A stretch of DNA of 53,990 bases from Candidatus Saccharibacteria bacterium CG_4_10_14_0_2_um_filter_52_9 (GTDB lineage: Bacteria; Actinomycetota; Acidimicrobiia; Acidimicrobiales; RAAP-2), in contig CAJCJA010000051.1 in NCBI GenBank assembly GCA_903970515.1, forward strand, positions 1 through 53,990, written 5' to 3'. Of this stretch, positions 30,583 through 39,960 are shown piece after piece. The notes under the pieces were generated by a model. It was not told where the DNA came from and made no database searches. It saw only the letters and a program-made list of their open reading frames with translations. Each line of letters opens with the position of its first letter. Position 1 is the stretch's first letter. A program made the translations under genes and the position numbers.

Positions 30583-30892
30583 GAGCTCGAAACAGTTCGG
30601 CACGCTGCTTTGGTCCGAGACCACGAATACGACGCGTCTGAGCAATGGACGCGCTCTTCATGATTCGCTCGGCCTTCACTTCACCAATCGCGGGCAGCGC
30701 ACTGATGAGGTCGTAGGCGCGCATTTGGGCGACACACTCTTCGCGCTCGGCGAGCTCGAAGAGTTCCTCAAGGGAGAGCTCACCGGACTTCACCTGACGC
30801 TTCACTTCCGCGCGACGCCGGCGATTCGCCACCGCTAGGCGCGACGCTTCCACGCGCTGTTCGTGCGTGAGAGCGGGCGGCGTTGGTGTCAC
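30572..30892 (-). CDS. mihF: Integration host factor, actinobacterial type (mIHF)
   Basis: 106 residues with no cysteine-rich or membrane segment. A basic N-terminal helix (RRRRAEVKRQVKSGELS) and the C-terminal helix-two-turn-helix LPAIGEVKAERIMKSASIAQTRRIRGLG match mIHF, the nucleoid-associated protein restricted to actinobacteria and always found before gmk. The GTG start lies six bases after TATTCT, so it probably has its own leaderless promoter after pyrF. Confidence 0.92.
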   Translation of the reverse strand: MTPTPPALTHEQRVEASRLAVANRRRRAEVKRQVKSGELSLEELFELAEREECVAQMRAYDLISALPAIGEVKAERIMKSASIAQTRRIRGLGPKQRAELFRALVR

Positions 30893-30898
30893 GACGTC

Positions 30899-30904
30899 AG
30901 AATA
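30899..30904 (-). promoter_or_regulatory. -10 element of mihF inside the long operon
   Basis: TATTCT, six bases (GACGTC), then the GTG of mihF. It lies in the 33-base gap after pyrF and would separate the pyr genes from the mihF-gmk-rpoZ group. Confidence 0.5.
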
Positions 30905-30925: not shown

Positions 30926-31762
30926 TCAGGTCAAGACTTCACTTAAATCGTCGCGCCACCGACGTGCGGCGTCGCGCAGCGCCGAACGCTCGGGACCCGC
31001 CTGCAATATGGCCCGTGACACGCTCGGCAGCACCGTCCCGGGCGTGCAACGGTCAAAGATTCTTGCCACGTTCTCGGGGGTGGCACCCTGAAACCCAACA
31101 CCGGGCACCAAGAACGGTCCCCTCAACGTGGTGAGGTCAAAACTCGGTCGGTCCCTCGTCGCACCGAGGACCGCGCCGAAGGGACCAAGGCCATCGAAGT
31201 TCGCGTTGCGCGCGCGCACCGCGCCGAGGACAAAGTCCTCCACGGTCTCGTTATCGCGCGTTCGTGCATCTTGAATCATGCGACCTTCCGCGTTCGACGT
31301 CGCGGTGAGCACGAAGACGCCGCGTCCGCTCGCTTGTGCTTTGTCCAACATCGGTGCGAGTGACTCAACGCCCAGATACGGACTCGCGGTCACCGCGTCA
31401 CTTCGAAGAGGTGACGCGTCGTCGAGCCACGCTTGCGCGTAACCAACGTTGGTCGAACCGACGTCCCCGCGTTTGGCGTCAGCGACGATCATGACGTGCG
31501 CGTCGCGGGCGTCGCTCATGACCCGCTCGAGCACTCGCACGCCTTCTGATCCGAATCGTTCGAAAAACGCCACTTGAGGTTTGATGACGGCGACGGTATC
31601 GAGCACCGCTTCGAGAACCGCGAGCGAGAAGTATTCGAGACTCTCGACGTTGTCACCCCTACCCCACGACTCGATCATCTCCTTGCTGGGATCAATTCCC
31701 ACGCACAGTGGTCCGCGTTCGCGCAGATGCTCTTGTAATCGCACACCAAAATTCTCATCCAT
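30926..31762 (-). CDS. pyrF: Orotidine 5'-phosphate decarboxylase (type 2)
   Basis: 278 residues, longer than the E. coli-type enzyme and fitting the mycobacterial type 2 family. It converts OMP to UMP. The catalytic block is VIVADAKRGDVGSTNVGYAQA with the Asp-Lys-Asp charge network; GPFLVPGVGFQGA near the end binds phosphate. ATG overlaps the pyrD stop by 8 bases. It is the last pyrimidine gene of the operon. Confidence 0.95.
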   Translation of the reverse strand: MDENFGVRLQEHLRERGPLCVGIDPSKEMIESWGRGDNVESLEYFSLAVLEAVLDTVAVIKPQVAFFERFGSEGVRVLERVMSDARDAHVMIVADAKRGDVGSTNVGYAQAWLDDASPLRSDAVTASPYLGVESLAPMLDKAQASGRGVFVLTATSNAEGRMIQDARTRDNETVEDFVLGAVRARNANFDGLGPFGAVLGATRDRPSFDLTTLRGPFLVPGVGFQGATPENVARIFDRCTPGTVLPSVSRAILQAGPERSALRDAARRWRDDLSEVLT

Positions 31763-32666
31763 GAGCCACCCCCACCAAATCAGTCACGTACGCGACGCGG
31801 TGTCGTCGCATCCACTTCTCGATCCCCCGCTGAACCAACCACGCGGCACGAGGATTGGCGAAACTCGCCGTTCCTACTTCGACCGCGTTGGCGCCCGCCA
31901 TCAACATCGCCACGGCATCCTCACCGCTCGTGATCCCTCCGACCCCCACGATCGCGGCGTCGGGGTACGCAGCGCGACAATCGAAGACGGCGCGCAACGA
32001 CACCGGCAAGATCCCCGGGCCACTCACGCCACCGCCGCCGCTCGCGAGCGACGTGCGACGATGCTCGATGTCGATGCCGAGACCCAAGACGGTGTTCACG
32101 AGCACCAGCGCCGACGCGCCCGCCTTGATGGCGGCACCGGCAATCTCGATCAAGTCGGGAGTGTTGGGACTCAGCTTCACCCAAAGCGGTAGACCTGCGA
32201 CCTTCGACGCGCTCACAATCGCTCGAGTGGCACTCGCTGAGTGAGCGAACATTGACGAACGGTTCTCGAGATTGGGACAACTCGCGTTCACTTCGAGCGC
32301 GACGACGTTGGCCCCTTTCATGGCACGAGCGGCGTCCTTGTACTCGGTGACGCTACGTCCCCAAATTGAGCCCACCACTTTGGCACCTCGAGCTTCGAGC
32401 GCGCCAAGATACGTCGCTCGCCATGCTTCGACGCCCGGACCCGTTAAGCCCACGGAGTTCAACATGTGCATCCCCGAAGAGGAAACTCGTGGCGCGGGAT
32501 TGCCTTCCCAGGGATAACTGGCGAGCGACTTGACGACGACGGCGCCCAACGCGGCGAGGTCGCCGTACGCCGCGAGTTCGTCACCGTAACCCGACGTGCC
32601 CGCGGCCGTCAACACCGGCGATCGCAGTTCGACGTCGCCCACCGGGGTGGAGAGGTCAACTCTCAT
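31755..32666 (-). CDS. pyrD: Dihydroorotate dehydrogenase, class 1B-like catalytic subunit
   Basis: 303 residues from ATG 32666, which overlaps the carB stop by 4 bases; a longer frame exists but lies in carB. It oxidises dihydroorotate to orotate using FMN. Catalytic Cys in [40 protein letters not shown] and GIGG-like [13 protein letters not shown] form the FMN site. The overall pattern is class 1 (soluble) with class 1B features, yet the PyrK electron-transfer partner is not in the window, and class 1B normally needs it. Confidence 0.9.
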
Positions 32667-35600
32667 CGATGCAGTTCCTGTAGTGAACGAACCCGCCACC
32701 CTCGAGCCCGCGTGTCGGCGATGCCCAGCGCCGCGGCGAAGCCCGCCGACAACGTGGTGAGACAAGGGACGGCGTGCACGATGCAGGCGGTGCGAATCTC
32801 GGCGCCGTCCACGCGCGCGCCGCTGCCCGACGGTGTGTTGACGACGAGTTGCACGTGACCCGACGCGAGCATTGACACGGCGTCCGCTCCGAGCTCGGCG
32901 ACGCCGATCTTGCCCACGAGGGTTTCGACCGGCACTTCATTACTGCGTAAGAATCCTGCTGTCCCGATGGTGGCGGCGATGCGAAAACCGAGCGCCACGA
33001 ATTCGCGCGCGAGGGCGAGTCCCGCCACCTTGTCTCGATCAGCGAGCGACATGAAGACTTGTCCCACGTCAGGAAGCCTCGTGCCGGCGGCGAGTTGCGC
33101 CTTCGCGAAGGCAATCCCGAAACTCTCACCGATGCCCATCACTTCGCCGGTGGAGCGCATCTCGGGACCGAGCACCGTATCGACCCCTGGAAAACGACTG
33201 AAGGGAAGCACCGCCTCTTTCACACTGACGTAGTTCGGAACGGGCGTCGTCGTTGGCACCATGCCCGCCTCGCGCAGTTGCGCCAGTGATTCGCCCATCG
33301 TCACGCGCACCGCCACCTGGGCGAGTGCCACGCCGGTCGCCTTCGCGACGAATGGCACGGTGCGGCTCGCGCGCGGATTCGCTTCGAGCACATAGACCTC
33401 TTCGTTCTTGACCGCGTACTGCACGTTGATGAGACCCCGTACCTCGAGCGACGTCGCAATCTTTCGCGTGTAGTCATCTAACGTCGCGAGCACGTGCGCG
33501 CTGAGCGACTGGGGCGGCAAGGCACAGGCGGAATCGCCCGAGTGCACGCCCGCCTCTTCGACGTGCTCCATGATCCCCGCCACGAACACCTCACCCGTCG
33601 CGTCACGCACCGCATCGACGTCAACTTCGATGGCGTCCTCGAGGAAGCTATCGAGAAGGATGGGGCGACTCTTCGAGACCCCCCCTTCACGAGCCAGCGA
33701 GCCGTGCTCGCTCGTCAAGTCCTTCATGACCCGTTCGAGGGCGGCGTCGTCGTAGACGATCTCCATGGCGCGACCACCAAGGACGTAGCTCGGGCGCACG
33801 AGTACGGGATAACCAATGCGCTTGACGATCGCCTTGGCTTCGGACAGACTCAGCGCGACGTCGCCGGGAGGTTGTCGAAGTCCCAAGCTCGTACAGATCT
33901 TCGACCACTGCTCACGGTCTTCAGCGGCGTCAATCGAGGCGACCGATGTGCCAAGTACGAGAGAGGAGTCGAGGGAGTGCGAGAGTTTGAGCGGCGTCTG
34001 ACCACCCAGGGCGACGATGACGCCCACCACCTTGGCACCGTCCGAGCACGCGGCGCGCTCCGCTTCGATCACCTCAGCGACGTCCTCGGGCGTCAGAGGC
34101 TCGAAGTACAAGCGGTCCGACGTCGAATAGTCCGTTGAGACCGTCTCGGGATTGCAGTTGACCATCACGGTTTCGTACCCCATGTCGCGCAGCGCCATCG
34201 ACGCGTGGACGCAGCAGTAATCGAACTCAATTCCTTGGCCAATTCGATTCGGACCGGAACCGAGGATGATGACGCGATCGCGCGCGGACATCTCGACCTC
34301 ACTCGTGTCCTCGTAGGTGCTGTAGTGATACGGCGTTGACGCATCGAACTCTGCGGCGCACGTGTCAACGGTCTTGAAGCTCGTCGTGACGCCGGCCTCG
34401 CGGCGTAATGTAGTCACGCGTTCGGTGCTCGTGCCCGTCAACAACGCGATCTGGGGATCAGAAAAGCCCCATTGCTTGACGCGCAGCCAACCGCGACGAT
34501 CGAGCGACGTGAGATCCAGGTCGCGCGTCAGTTCTCGTTCGCGTTCGATGATGCTGGCGAGTTGATGTACGAACCAGCGATCAATCTTCGTTCGTCGCAC
34601 CACTTCCTCGACGTCCGCTCCTCGCCACATCACTTCGTGCATCGCGAAGAGACGCTCAGGGGTTGCCACCTCGCAGCGATGCCACAACGTCTCGAGGTCC
34701 AGCTCACTGAACTCCGAGTCGCCCGTCGCGAAACCCAATCGACCTTGCTCCAAGGACCGGATCGCCTTTTGCAACGATTCGGCGAAGTTGCGACCAATCG
34801 CCATCACCTCGCCTACGGACTGCATGCGGGTGCCGAGTTCGGGTATCACCCCAGGTAACTTCTCGAACGCCCAGCGTGGGATCTTGGTGACGACGTAGTC
34901 GATCACCGGTTCGAAACTCGCGGGCGTCACCTTGGTGATGTCGTTGCGAATCTCGTCGAGCGTGTAGCCCACGGCGAGACGAGCGGCAATCTTCGCGATC
35001 GGAAAACCGGTGGCTTTGGACGCCAGCGCGCTCGAGCGGCTCACGCGGGGATTCATCTCAATCACCAGGCGTTCGCCCGTGTCGGGATTGACCGCGAACT
35101 GGACGTTGGAACCTCCCGTTTCCACCCCCACGCGACGCAGTACCGCGAAGGCGTCGTCGCGCATCGCCTGGTACTCGACGTCGGACAGCGTTTGTTGGGG
35201 GGCGACGGTGATTGAGTCACCGGTGTGCACGCCCATCGGATCGAAGTTCTCGATGCTGCAGATCACCACGCAATTGTCAGCGACGTCGCGCATGACCTCG
35301 AGTTCATATTCCTTCCAACCGGCGATGGATTTCTCCACGAGAATCTCACCAATCGGCGAGGCGACGATGCCTTCGTCGGCGAGACGGCGAAAGTCCTTCT
35401 CGTTGTGGGCAATGCCCGTACCAGCCCCTCCGAGGATGAAGCTCGGACGGATGATAATGGGCCAACCAATTCGCTCGGCGATCGTGACGGCGCTCTCCAC
35501 GTCGTGCGCGAATCCCGACTCGGGTACTTGCAGTCCGATGTCACCCATGGCGGCTTTGAACTTCTCGCGGTCCTCCGCAGTTTCTATCGCCTCGGGACGC

Positions 35601-35953
35601 GCACCGATGACTTCGACGCCTAGACGCTGCGGCACGCCTCGGCGCACCAGTTCCATAGTGAGATTGAGCGCCGTCTGTCCCCCCAAGGTGGGCAGCAGGG
35701 CGTCGGGACGCTCTCGCTCCAGGATGTCGATGAGCACCTCGACGTCGAGAGGCTCCACGTAGGTGACATCCGCGGTCGCCGGGTCCGTCATGATCGTCGC
35801 GGGGTTCGAATTCACGAGGATTACTTTGTAGCCCTCTTCACGCAAGACTTGGCACGCTTGGGTTCCCGAGTAGTCGAACTCACACGCTTGACCAATGACG
35901 ATGGGCCCCGAACCAATAACCATGATCGAGTGCAGGTCATTTCGACGAGGCAT
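32663..35953 (-). CDS. carB: Carbamoyl-phosphate synthase large subunit
   Basis: 1096 residues from ATG 35953 ([16 protein letters not shown]), which shares one base with the carA stop. Two homologous ATP-grasp synthetase halves: the first with [19 protein letters not shown], the second near residue 560 with [19 protein letters not shown]; the last 140 residues form the allosteric MGS-like domain. It makes carbamoyl phosphate for both pyrimidine and arginine synthesis, so it links this operon to the arg operon at the window's start. The frame is open upstream to 36295, but that part overlaps carA. Confidence 0.97.
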
Positions 35954-37044
35954 CAGACGCCCTCCAGCTTCCCGGTGCGCAAGAGTGCTTCGAATCGATC
36001 GAACAGATAGCGCGCGTCGTGAGGGCCGGGGCCCGCTTCGGGGTGATACTGCACCGAGAAACATCGGTGATCCAGCGACTCGATGCCTTCGATGACCCCG
36101 TCGTTCAAATTGACGTGGCTGATCATGCCGCGCTCCAAAGAATCGGGCGTCACCGCATAATTGTGATTTTGCGCCGTGATCTCGATTCGATGTGTGCGAA
36201 GATCCTTGACGGGATGGTTGCTGCCGTGATGTCCGAAGGGGAGCTTGAACGTCGTCGCACCTAAGGCGCTGGCGAGCAACTGGTGTCCCAGGCAAATGCC
36301 AAAGATCGGTACCGAACCAATGAGTTCTTCGACCACCGCGGAGTTTGCCCCGAGCGCTGCGGGGTCGCCAGGTCCGTTGGAGAGGAAGACGCCGTCGGGA
36401 TGAAGTTCGCGCAACTCATCGGCACTCGTTGACGAAGGTACGACCGTTACGCGAAATCGTGCGCCGAGTTGTTGGACCATCGTGGTCTTGATGCCATAGT
36501 CAAAGGCGACGACGTGCAGGTCCCCCGACCCGCGCTCGTACGCAACCGGTGTCGAGACACTAGACACGTAATCGGTGTTATCCGTCCCACGCGCCTCGCG
36601 GGCGCTCGCGAGCACCAACGCGGGCTCGGCGTGACCGAAGGCGCCGGGCAGCGCTCCGTGCGCGCGCAAATGTCGCGTCAGGCGTCTCGTGTCGATTCCC
36701 ATGATGCCCGCGAGACGGTGTTGGCGCATGAATCCTTCGAGCGGGCCCACGGAGCGCCAGTTGGAAGGTACGTCAGAGAGTTCGCGCACGACGACGCCCC
36801 CACACCAAGGACGAAGGGCCTCGTCATCGAGTGGCGTGACACCGTAGTTACCAATGTGGGGATAGGTGAAGGCGATGATCTGGCCCGCGTAGCTGGGATC
36901 GGTGATGACCTCTTGATAACCACTCAAGGCCGTGTTAAAGACGAATTCACCCGAACTGATCCCATCCTCAGGAAGGTGCCCGAAGGCTTCGCCCTCAAAG
37001 AGGGTCCCATCGGCGAGAGCGAGCACCGCGGAAGTTCGCTTCAC
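35953..37044 (-). CDS. carA: Carbamoyl-phosphate synthase small subunit
   Basis: 363 residues. An N-terminal small-subunit domain (about 1-150; [31 protein letters not shown]) leads to a class I glutaminase with catalytic Cys in [14 protein letters not shown] and His in [13 protein letters not shown]. It supplies ammonia to CarB. ATG overlaps the pyrC stop by 4 bases. Confidence 0.97.
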
Positions 37045-38351
37045 ACCAACTCCGCTTCGTGGACGACGAGCGTGCCCTTGGCGATGGTCGAGCGAACTTG
37101 ACCCACTAACGCTCGTCCGTCATAGGGACTGTTGGTCGCTCGACTGTGCAAGGTGGCATTCGACGCGGTCCATCGCGCGTTCGGGTCAAAGACGACGAGA
37201 TTCGCGTCGTCACCCGCAACGAGTGCGCCGCCGTGCGCACTATGTCGAACGCGCAAGTCATCGCGACGTAGTTGCGCAATGCGCGCCGGCCCTCGACTCA
37301 ACAACGAGAAGAACTGCACCGGATCAACGTCACCACCGAGTGCCTCGAACGTGAGCGACGCGCTGTACTCGAGTCCGAGCAATCCCGCAGGCGCTTCGTC
37401 AAAGGCGAGATCCTTAAGCTCTGGCGCGTGTGGCGCGTGGTCGGACGCGACGGCGTCGACCAACCCGGAGCGAAGTGCGACGCGCAAACCCTCCACGTCA
37501 CTCGCGGCGCGAAGCGGCGGGTGGACCTTGAAGAGTGCGTCAAATCCTTGGCACGACGTCTCGTCGAGCGTGAGGTGGTGCGGTGCCACCTCACACGTGA
37601 CGGGCAGACCTTCGCGTCGTGCGGCGTCGACCAGATTTAGTGAACGAATCGTCGAGAGGTGCAAGAAGTGAAGCGGAGCGCCGGTGAGTCGCACGAGTTC
37701 GATGTCGCGCATCACCATGAGCTCCTCGGCGAGCGCGGGTCGCCCGACCAGTCCGAGTCGGCTACTCAACGCCCCCTCGTTCATCGACCCACCGGCCGCC
37801 AACAACTCGTCTTCACAGTGTTGTGCGAGGCGAACGCCGAGGGGGCGCGCGTAGGTCAGCGCCCTACGCATCACCGAGGGATCTTGGACGCCAATGCCGT
37901 CGTCGGTAAAAAGTCGTACCCCTAACGCTGCCATTTCCGCCATCGGAGCCAAGGACTCGCCTTTTCGACCCACGGTGATCGCGCCGGCGACCGCGACGTC
38001 GATTGGTGTTCGTGTGCCTCGATCGAGGACGTAGGACACGAGGGCCACGTTGTCGAGAGCGGGCTCCGTATTGGGCATCGCCACGAGCGCGGTGAATCCA
38101 CCGATGGCGCCCGCGTGGGCGCCACTCTCAATTGTCTCGGCGGCTTCTCGGCCCGGTTCGCGCAGGTGCGCGTGCAAGTCAACCATTCCGGGGCCAACCC
38201 AGCATCCTCGTGCGTCGATCTCCGAGCAACCGGGTGGCAACGCGATGGTGTCCGACACGTCGACGATGACGCCGTCGCGTACGAGAACGTCACCTACGGA
38301 ACTCGTGGATGGACCCACGACGAGCCCTCCGCGCACCAGTAACGAGCTCAC
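37041..38351 (-). CDS. pyrC: Dihydroorotase (type I)
   Basis: 436 residues from GTG 38351, giving a GTGA overlap with pyrB. The amidohydrolase barrel has the zinc motif DLHAHLREPG, MPNTEPALDN, and ASDHAPHAPELK with the catalytic Asp. It closes carbamoyl aspartate to dihydroorotate. The open frame runs upstream to 38645, but that stretch lies in pyrB and matches no family sequence. Confidence 0.95.
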   Translation of the reverse strand: MSSLLVRGGLVVGPSTSSVGDVLVRDGVIVDVSDTIALPPGCSEIDARGCWVGPGMVDLHAHLREPGREAAETIESGAHAGAIGGFTALVAMPNTEPALDNVALVSYVLDRGTRTPIDVAVAGAITVGRKGESLAPMAEMAALGVRLFTDDGIGVQDPSVMRRALTYARPLGVRLAQHCEDELLAAGGSMNEGALSSRLGLVGRPALAEELMVMRDIELVRLTGAPLHFLHLSTIRSLNLVDAARREGLPVTCEVAPHHLTLDETSCQGFDALFKVHPPLRAASDVEGLRVALRSGLVDAVASDHAPHAPELKDLAFDEAPAGLLGLEYSASLTFEALGGDVDPVQFFSLLSRGPARIAQLRRDDLRVRHSAHGGALVAGDDANLVVFDPNARWTASNATLHSRATNSPYDGRALVGQVRSTIAKGTLVVHEAELV

Positions 38352-39334
38352 GAGCCACCTCCATCTCGGACACTTGCTAAGGCGAGATACAACACGGCCA
38401 TTCGCACCGGGACGCCGTTCGTGACTTGGCGCGTGATGACTGCGCTCGCCAAGTCTGCGACCTTTGAATCGATCTCGACGCCACGATTCATTGGTCCGGG
38501 GTGCATGATGATCGTCGTGGGGCGCAGACGCTTCGCGCGAGCGAAAGTGAGGCCGAAGGTTTGCGTGAACTCCTCCAATGAGGGCACGAACGACCCCGAA
38601 CCGCGCTCTCGTTGCAAGCGCAACAGACCAACCACGTCGGCCCACTCGAGGGCTTCATCGAAGTCCGACACCACCGTCACGGGCCACGTCTCAATGTTGG
38701 CGGGCAGCAGAGTGCCCGGTGCCGCAACGCGTACTTCGCAACCCAGCGTCGAATAGGCCACGATGTCGCTGCGTGCGACCCGGCTGTGACGGACGTCACC
38801 GACGATCAGTACGCGCAGTCCCTTGAACAGTTCCAGACCAGACTCGACACCGGTGGTGTCGGCTCGCTCGCTGAGCACTTGACGAATCGTGAATGCGTCT
38901 AAGAGGCCTTGCGTGGGATGCTGGTGCAACCCGTCGCCCGCATTGATGACTCGCACGTGGGGGACGTAACGACTCACCTGTAATGCCGCGCCGCTTGATT
39001 GGTGTCGCATGACGAGCGCGTCGATGCCGAGCGCGTCAATTGTGGCGGTCGTGTCGCGAAGTGACTCCCCCTTCTTGACGCTGCTCGATGCCACGGCGAG
39101 CGAGAGGACGTCGGCGGACAATCTCTTTGCGGCGGTCTCGAAACTCAGCCGCGTTCGCGTCGATTCCTCGAAGAAGATCGAGGCGACGACCTTACCCTTG
39201 AGGGCGGGGACCTTTTTTATCGAGCGCCGATTCACTTCAACAAAGGACTCGGCGGTGTCGAGCACTTCGAGCAGCGCAGCATCGGACACTCCCTCGAGGG
39301 TCAGCAAGTTTTCGCCCCGCAGCGACGCAATCAC
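38348..39334 (-). CDS. pyrB: Aspartate carbamoyltransferase catalytic chain
   Basis: 328 residues from GTG 39334, chosen because it gives the 4-base GTGA overlap with pyrR seen at other junctions here; an ATG at 39358 would add 8 residues. Motifs: FFEESTRTRLSFE (carbamoyl-phosphate loop), HPTQGLLDAFTI and MHPGPMNRGVEID. No pyrI regulatory chain is present, so it is likely the unregulated trimer type. It commits carbamoyl phosphate to pyrimidine synthesis. Confidence 0.96.
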   Translation of the reverse strand: MIASLRGENLLTLEGVSDAALLEVLDTAESFVEVNRRSIKKVPALKGKVVASIFFEESTRTRLSFETAAKRLSADVLSLAVASSSVKKGESLRDTTATIDALGIDALVMRHQSSGAALQVSRYVPHVRVINAGDGLHQHPTQGLLDAFTIRQVLSERADTTGVESGLELFKGLRVLIVGDVRHSRVARSDIVAYSTLGCEVRVAAPGTLLPANIETWPVTVVSDFDEALEWADVVGLLRLQRERGSGSFVPSLEEFTQTFGLTFARAKRLRPTTIIMHPGPMNRGVEIDSKVADLASAVITRQVTNGVPVRMAVLYLALASVRDGGGS

Positions 39335-39900
39335 GACACGCCCTTCGTTCCCATCCACACCCCGTCAAGGGTGGCGCGAATCGTCTCGTCCAGGGCCGTG
39401 GGCAGATTTTTCCCTACGTAATCGGGCCGAATGGGTAGTTCACGATGCCCGCGGTCGACCATGACGGCCAATTGGACTGAACGAGGTCGTCCCCAATCCG
39501 ATAACGCGTTCAAGGCCGCGCGAATGGTCCGGCCGGTGAACAAGACGTCATCGACCAAGATCACCGTCCGGTCGGTCAAATCATCGTCGATTGCCGTCAT
39601 CGACGTTCTCGGCGTGGGATTCACATTGAGATCGTCGCGGTAAAAAGAAACGTCGAGGAGCCCGAGTGAGGTTGTCGTTGAGGTGATATCGCTCAGGAGT
39701 TCGCTCATGCGAGTCGCGAAACCTACGCCGCCTGTCTGCATGCCAATCACCGTCATATCTTCCAGCGCGTGATTGCGCTCGACGATCTCGTGGGCCATTC
39801 GTCGCAAAGCGCGTTCCACATCGTCGGCGCTCAACAGTTGGCTCTTCGCAAGAAACGCCAGATCGCGCGGGGGCGTCTGGCGTTCATTTTTAAAACTCAT
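39331..39900 (-). CDS. pyrR: PyrR, pyrimidine operon RNA-binding regulator / uracil phosphoribosyltransferase
   Basis: 189 residues. The PRPP-binding motif VILVDDVLFTGRTIRAAL (about 107-124) and GVGFATRMSELL, with basic segments for RNA contact, are typical. In Bacillus it causes attenuation; in Mycobacterium smegmatis it represses translation. The ATG has GGGAG four bases upstream, and a hairpin matching the PyrR site lies just before it, so it likely regulates its own operon. Confidence 0.96.
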   Translation of the reverse strand: MSFKNERQTPPRDLAFLAKSQLLSADDVERALRRMAHEIVERNHALEDMTVIGMQTGGVGFATRMSELLSDITSTTTSLGLLDVSFYRDDLNVNPTPRTSMTAIDDDLTDRTVILVDDVLFTGRTIRAALNALSDWGRPRSVQLAVMVDRGHRELPIRPDYVGKNLPTALDETIRATLDGVWMGTKGVS

Positions 39901-39915
39901 GATTCTCCCGTCGTT

Positions 39916-39933
39916 CGGACCTCACGGGATCCG
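39916..39933 (-). promoter_or_regulatory. PyrR-binding RNA hairpin in the pyrR leader
   Basis: On the minus-strand RNA, CGGAU-CCCGUGAG-GUCCG forms a five-pair stem and a loop. The core UCCCGUGAGGU matches the known PyrR site consensus UCCNGNGAGGY throughout; only the two outermost consensus positions differ. It ends about 7 bases before the GGGAG ribosome-binding site, and no terminator follows, so translational repression is favoured over attenuation. Confidence 0.78.
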
Positions 39934-39954
39934 CTTCACGACTACCGATTGCTA

Positions 39955-39960
39955 AGGATA
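39955..39960 (-). promoter_or_regulatory. -10 element of the pyr operon
   Basis: TATCCT on the minus strand about 55 bases before the pyrR ATG, which would start the transcript near 39948 and so include the PyrR hairpin. No convincing -35 is seen. Confidence 0.4.

Follow-up and report, generated by a model that had tools for sequence, protein, structure and literature searches.

The window (the whole 53,990-nt stretch analysed here), from an uncultured soil actinobacterium, carries on its minus strand a pyr operon headed by pyrR; downstream of pyrR follow pyrB, pyrC, carA, carB, pyrD and pyrF, and further on gmk, coaBC and metK. The genes of the overlapping chain and the element found behind it are:

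39331..39900, minus strand: pyrR, 189 aa (NF003549 PyrR equivalog at 210 bits, cut-off 138; matches to PyrR entries of the PDB)
38348..39334, minus strand: pyrB, GTGA overlap with pyrR; inferred start
37041..38351, minus strand: pyrC, GTGA overlap with pyrB; inferred start
35953..37044, minus strand: carA, GTGA overlap with pyrC
32663..35953, minus strand: carB, TGATG junction with carA (1-nt overlap); inferred start
31755..32666, minus strand: pyrD, ATGA overlap with carB; inferred start
30926..31762, minus strand: pyrF, 8 nt shared with pyrD; end of the overlapping chain
30899..30904, minus strand: predicted -10 element TATTCT before the gene that follows pyrF; TANNNT conserved in same-genus loci

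Solved PyrR structures matched the window protein with E-values down to 6e-48, and in the alignment to these structures the PRPP-loop stretch was kept, as were the residues that we take to be RNA-binding, except that R stands at the position of B. subtilis T18. All six junctions between the seven genes from pyrR to pyrF (39900-30926) overlap at start and stop, with the starts as inferred. The first gene after pyrF starts at 30892, 33 nt past pyrF in the window, and encodes a small protein that presumably resembles mIHF. In 24/24 same-genus loci, the window included, this gene has a TANNNT 12 or 13 nt ahead of its start codon, which suggests a separate promoter with a leaderless transcript, splitting the 19-kb run of genes. 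The original prediction had proposed that one hairpin upstream of pyrR could affect this whole run; such a reach is doubtful, as the overlap chain stops at pyrF and a separate -10 element precedes the gene behind it. Read-through from the pyr genes is possible, but control by the hairpin need not extend to gmk, coaBC, metK and the remaining genes.

The leader and the first codons of pyrR contain the following features:

39955..39960, minus strand: predicted -10 element TATCCT, preceded by TGC (from the sequence; TANNNT conserved in leaders)
39910..39942, minus strand: PyrR-binding stem-loop (from the sequence, covariation and covariance-model match)
39942-39938/39914-39910, minus strand: lower stem GUCGU/ACGAC
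39937-39934, minus strand: internal loop GAAG, on the 5' side
39933-39928/39921-39916, minus strand: upper stem CGGAUC/GGUCCG
39922..39927, minus strand: hexaloop CCGUGA (CNGNGA; from the sequence and the leader alignment)
39905..39909, minus strand: pyrR Shine-Dalgarno GGGAG, abutting the lower stem (from the sequence and leader positions)
39856..39882, minus strand: terminator-like hairpin at pyrR codons 7-15 (-15.6 kcal/mol, z -4.33)
39850..39855, minus strand: T-run TTTCTT after the terminator-like hairpin (total d -3.2)

A PyrR-binding hairpin upstream of pyrR, as originally predicted, was confirmed: the exact consensus is present on the minus strand and the pyrR Shine-Dalgarno adjoins it. 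The predicted interval (39916-39933) corresponds exactly to the upper stem-loop, whereas the full element is larger (39942-39910, minus strand) and has a single unpaired A on its 3' side, between the upper and the lower stem. The Shine-Dalgarno is followed by AAUC and by the AUG at 39900. PyrR sites were defined by a CNGNGA hexaloop, the sequence UCCNGNGAGGY (the known consensus, as also given in the original prediction) and a covarying stem, and the leader alignment revealed all three in the window, where the site also lies in the leader of a pyr operon in a genome encoding PyrR. The 11-base consensus by itself matched the window three times, with 1.31 matches expected, and was rejected as sufficient proof of a PyrR site, the motif alone being at chance level; the fold of 100 nt around the hairpin was nothing unusual (z 0.53). 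Because the short consensus alone is not rare, the case for the window site rests on its context and its relatives, that is, on place and conservation rather than on motif or fold alone, and on these grounds we regard its identity as a PyrR-binding site as near certain.

The Rfam covariance search suggested with the original prediction gave no match of the PyrR model, RF00515, in the window or its genome, either at the gathering score or at a permissive E-value. The best Rfam match of the window site was a weak one to SpF44_sRNA (14.8 bits with a cut-off of 70, E 5.2), and no other family matched. This family (RF02437) is catalogued as a Streptococcus sRNA and looks like a PyrR element; F44 is given as a PyrR-binding site in PMC12323649, and we infer that it is the same as Rfam SpF44. 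RF00515 does match two other leaders (L163 and L168), where the alignment also spans the downstream terminator, and it aligned L037 over its full length at 36 bits, with a cut of 54.

By name the relatives belong to the Acidimicrobiales, and many came from peat and permafrost soils. A convincing PyrR match was found in 60 of the 61 genomes searched, the window's own included; the sole match in G022 was weak (E 7.9e-5, 24% identity). The leaders of these 60 genomes and of 80 further loci made up a set of 140, in which 10 leaders are present twice, having come from each of two collections. The exact consensus was present in 127/140 and a variant in 12 (five recognised by eye: L055, L088, L117, L126 and L136), and the remaining leader (L101) is cut by a contig end. 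The covariation alignment and the covariance model comprised 121 distinct leaders, the window's among them, with identical leaders counted once, L069, L101 and L136 left out, and L135 apparently in the wrong register. A lack of covariation in the stem had been named as counter-evidence; in these 121 leaders the stem does covary. The 11 stem pairs were formed in 92.6% of cells versus 83.6% in shuffled alignments and the covariation score was 0.286 versus 0.133, neither value being equalled in 500 shuffles; both sides were changed in 109 cells versus 31 shuffled, and pairing fell to 36-37% when the partner column was slid by one. Seven of the 11 pairs changed on both sides, a weaker measure that 8/500 shuffles and one slid version also reach, and the outermost pair of the lower stem was formed in just 49/121 leaders. 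In L135 a second PyrR-like hairpin (CUGGUC-CCGUGA-GGCCAG) was observed about 80 nt before pyrR, upstream of the nearest one, possibly representing tandem sites.

In the window's own genome the covariance model detected one site (E 2.9e-11; next best 3.1), and in the order it detected at least one site in 357/397 genomes (E ≤ 1e-4). Twenty of the 40 model-negative genomes were checked: 11 had no PyrR match at E ≤ 1e-20 and nine had one, and in eight of these nine a divergent site was recognised by eye, the exception being L216. At the phylum level, the model found a site in at least 37/296 genomes, a lower bound with 21 candidates scored per genome. Counted from column 38 of the alignment (the last pair but one at the foot of the stem), the start codon lies 11-20 nt to the 3' side in 115/124 leaders, and Shine-Dalgarno matches begin 1-9 nt to the 3' side in 113/124. 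The window site adjoins the first ribosome-binding site, a position that by itself corresponds to Shine-Dalgarno occlusion of the Mycobacterium smegmatis type, and the PyrR protein very probably blocks ribosome loading at pyrR.

A TANNNT lies 34 to 18 nt before the loop UCC in 110/125 leaders, whereas 16-nt intervals not overlapping that one contained it in 0 to 11 of the 125. The transcript start is predicted at about 39947-39950 in the window, a few bases 5' of the lower stem. Since a conserved -10 element lies just upstream, the transcript probably begins with the PyrR hairpin; the downstream start that would have spoken against the hairpin is not what this element indicates, as it puts the start 5' of it. 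Eleven leaders without TANNNT in the usual interval (L002, L008, L010-L013, L016, L018, L019, L064 and L068, of the window's genus or close to it) have a hairpin of variable sequence, 8-17 pairs long, abutting the lower stem of the PyrR site. The mean z of these hairpins was -3.8, with 9/11 below -2, in comparison with a mean of -0.45 and one value below -2 in 27 other same-genus leaders. In L002, L010, L013, L016 and L018 a same-direction ORF, presumably of cytochrome-oxidase-related genes, ends 50-70 nt before the loop motif, and the abutting hairpin of the TANNNT-less leaders is perhaps a processing or insulating hairpin.

The original prediction had also stated that no terminator/antiterminator pair is present. 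This holds for the antiterminator, as no classical helix of that kind was found, but across the order a terminator-like hairpin lies inside the first pyrR codons. Relatives have G+C-rich inverted repeats followed by T-runs in early pyrR codons (e.g. CGCCCCC-loop-GGGGGCG-TTTTTGTT), mostly at codons 7-17. Terminators were scored with the d'Aubenton formula, with the usual cut of d>0, and the pyrR start was taken as the first in-frame start after the site, which is doubtful for L088, L130, L136 and L139. A d>0 was obtained in 59/128 pyrR leaders of the order, while permuting synonymous codons within each gene (40 rounds, with protein and codon usage unchanged) gave a mean of 4.25 and a maximum of 9 of 128. 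Values above 0 were absent (0/128) from each of four other pyrR windows and from the pyrB start, and occurred in 25/3000 random windows of the loci, a count in which windows containing the intragenic terminator itself are not separated. The terminator was present in 17/24 families, with one genome each; in family f3, four of the 16 pyrR leaders had d clearly above 0 and a fifth stood at 0.0. Val and Phe codons at the T-run end in T in 125/149 cases versus 139/1402 elsewhere, a bias that is partly circular, since the leaders were chosen for their T-run; the permutation test is free of this circularity. At the sequence level, selection for an intragenic terminator across the order is evident.

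The homologous hairpin of the window (CGCCAGACGCCCCCGCGCGATCTGGCG, 39882-39856, minus strand) has an energy matched by 1/400 synonymous permutations. Its d of -3.2 is just below the usual cut and was reached by 4/400, and the segment reaching from the PyrR hairpin as far as the T-run has a better fold than 196/200 shuffles (z -2.5). Seven of the 36 leaders of the window's genus have d>0 and five, the window among them, lie between -10 and 0. As judged by these scores, a large part of the order has a strong terminator, and most of the window's genus has a weak one or has lost it.

More than one PyrR site was found in 12/397 genomes of the order, namely 10 of the 16 sampled from family f3 and two of f7. 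The 13 extra sites (one genome has two) all precede carA; the PyrR element thus accompanies genes besides pyrR, which argues for control of the operon and not for autoregulation only. In 11/13 carA sites, all of f3 and from three genera, so that they are not independent, the PyrR hairpin and a Shine-Dalgarno lead an ORF of 22-31 codons whose stop has a 4-nt overlap with a carA start; among the possible starts of both reading frames a script chose the pair closest to such an overlap, which may flatter this result. A terminator hairpin lies inside this short ORF in the 11 f3 sites, 17-26 nt past its start, and d>0 was obtained in 10/13 carA sites, all among these 11. Both f7 sites were negative for the terminator (0/2); one leads an ORF of 35 codons with an 8-nt carA overlap and the other has no ORF. 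A short ORF spanning a terminator and led by a regulator-binding hairpin is a requirement of translation-coupled attenuation. Genome G629 has two different carA loci (L199 and L223), each with PyrR site, short ORF and terminator, reflecting either duplication or mixed strains.

The same elements were compared across the phylum, where 89 PyrR leaders were assigned: a terminator precedes the ORF in 35 (d>-5) and none was found by the scan in 37. These assignments are partly crude, as 10 leaders were labelled as having no site, although by eye a site-like sequence is recognisable in L284 and L312, and perhaps also in L327 and L343, and L263, L324 and L336 look misplaced. As a comparison group, 35 leaders of other lineages with d≥0, mostly with the terminator before the ORF, were used; this group differs from the 35 obtained at d>-5. 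The helix that their terminator arm could form with the 3' side of the hairpin averaged 5.2 bp, versus 3.2 bp in the 59 leaders with an embedded terminator, 50 of which had 3 bp or less. The CCUU/AAGG motif occurs in 34 lower stems and 21 arms of the 35 comparison leaders, and in neither element of the 59 embedded ones (0 and 0). By this comparison of helix lengths, a classical antiterminator helix was not found in the 59 embedded leaders. When the truncated transcript was folded as an ensemble, pairing between the arm and the PyrR hairpin was mostly absent, exceeding a probability of 0.5 in 7/59 embedded and 7/35 comparison leaders, which does not separate the groups, and a duplex-energy test (z<-2 in 0/60 embedded leaders) was uninformative, as the control group was also negative (1/40). 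A Bacillus-type leader has a terminator and a mutually exclusive antiterminator before the ORF; here the hairpin lies inside the ORF and the arm helix is short.

UMP is the established ligand of PyrR. PyrR with UMP is described for Streptococcus in PMC6296669, and according to PMC5021804 intrinsic termination is prevented by a ribosome in the act of translation, the pyrL leader of E. coli included. From the PyrR site, its covariation, the positions of the -10 element and the Shine-Dalgarno, the selection on the terminator across the order and the carA copies, all of which can be read in the sequences, we infer the binding of PyrR with its ligand, the exclusion of the ribosome, termination, and a role of the ribosome as antiterminator. 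With abundant UMP, PyrR would bind the hairpin with which the nascent mRNA begins and, as the stem borders directly on the Shine-Dalgarno, would keep the ribosome off pyrR; on the untranslated transcript the terminator in the first codons would form and transcription would end after about 100 nt. Without PyrR, a loaded ribosome would disrupt the terminator hairpin and transcription would continue into pyrB-pyrF. To such PyrR-gated, translation-coupled attenuation, in which one protein-RNA contact would turn off both translation and transcription, we give somewhat better than even chances. That PyrR would only gate the ribosome, and that the ribosome over the terminator, in the pyrR codons or in the carA leader ORF, would be the antiterminator of a hybrid attenuator, falls a little short of an even chance; such an attenuator would stand midway between that of Bacillus and mycobacterial translational repression, and would have arisen through a reading frame extended over the terminator. 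In the window, where the terminator is borderline, translational repression alone may be dominant.

Pure translational repression of the M. smegmatis type would have PyrR cover the Shine-Dalgarno with no regulated termination, and we consider it rather unlikely as the whole account; similarly doubtful is its corollary that translational coupling passes the control on to the downstream pyr genes and that the intragenic hairpin of the window is a decaying relic. M. smegmatis transcriptional fusions reportedly escaped regulation by PyrR (Fields and Switzer, 2007), which speaks against coupled attenuation. The abutting Shine-Dalgarno, the overlap of all six pyr junctions, the interrupted T-run of the window, the 29/36 same-genus leaders without a terminator by the usual cut and the 37/89 phylum leaders without one by the scan are all consistent with it, but this type of control fits poorly with a window hairpin more stable than 399/400 synonymous permutations, with an order that keeps hairpin and T-run far above its permutations, and with the retention of both within a short ORF in 10/13 carA copies.

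Two further readings were weighed. If the locus were a classical PyrR attenuator, an antiterminator would compete with the terminator and PyrR would free the terminator, the ribosome being uninvolved; the parts do follow in the order of RF00515, site and then terminator (as in the full-length alignment of L037, 36 bits versus 54), and 35/89 phylum leaders have the terminator before the ORF, but the match of 3 bp or less between arm and hairpin in 50/59 embedded leaders (comparison group: 5.2 bp on average) makes this very unlikely. An RNA-only switch, in which the loop UCCCGU pairs with the Shine-Dalgarno ACGGGA and PyrR opens or closes that pairing, draws on the predicted minimum of the window RNA, which contains the loop-Shine-Dalgarno pairing at lengths of 47, 51 and 93 nt, and on the slightly greater predicted stability of the unbound 47-nt RNA with this pairing (-14.0 versus -13.0 kcal/mol). 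Among the leaders, however, the loop-Shine-Dalgarno cells are paired in 62.9% versus 62.5% of shuffled cases, the covariation score is 0.171 versus 0.163 with 76/500 shuffles as high, any PyrR site beside a Shine-Dalgarno offers the complementary UCC and GGA, and the closing pair of the hexaloop has a probability >0.5 in 105/122 leaders folded from the hairpin to the start codon (0.74 in the window). The pairing was rejected as a conserved switch for want of covariation, and we give this reading hardly any credence.

The favoured translation-coupled attenuation shares features with three known systems. PyrR translational repression in M. smegmatis, with the site beside the first ribosome-binding site, is said to have been described by Fields and Switzer in 2007; like that leader, those studied here have the PyrR site beside the first ribosome-binding site of a pyr operon and no terminator before the ORF. 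Unlike it, many members of the order have a terminator in the first codons (d>0 in 59/128, versus -3.2 in the window, for a type defined by no terminator in leader or early gene), and the carA copies of one family precede a short ORF. With the Firmicutes attenuator RF00515 they share the hexaloop, the U-G pair, the 5' internal loop and, in many relatives, a downstream terminator, whereas here the terminator is inside the reading frame, a classical antiterminator helix was not seen and RF00515 misses the window. The pyrL type is marked by a terminator lying close to the start of a translated ORF; many relatives have one there and the window is borderline, with translation deduced from frame and Shine-Dalgarno. 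As in E. coli pyrBI/pyrL, according to PMC5021804 and PMC4824070, the terminator is inside a leader ORF and the ribosome would decide on termination; there, however, the response is to UTP through polymerase pausing, while here the PyrR site would gate ribosome loading.

The PyrR site itself, also in its translational form, is already known. Among titles and abstract openings, with subscription papers mostly outside this coverage, no description was found of a PyrR site combined with an intragenic terminator or of a PyrR-gated leader ORF. If true, the proposed mechanism would join two PyrR mechanisms that are treated as alternatives, would account for the silencing of an entire operon by a block of translation at its first gene, and would be a case of a protein-coding stretch doubling as a terminator. 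The leaders of this one order make the shift of PyrR control from attenuation to translation directly testable.
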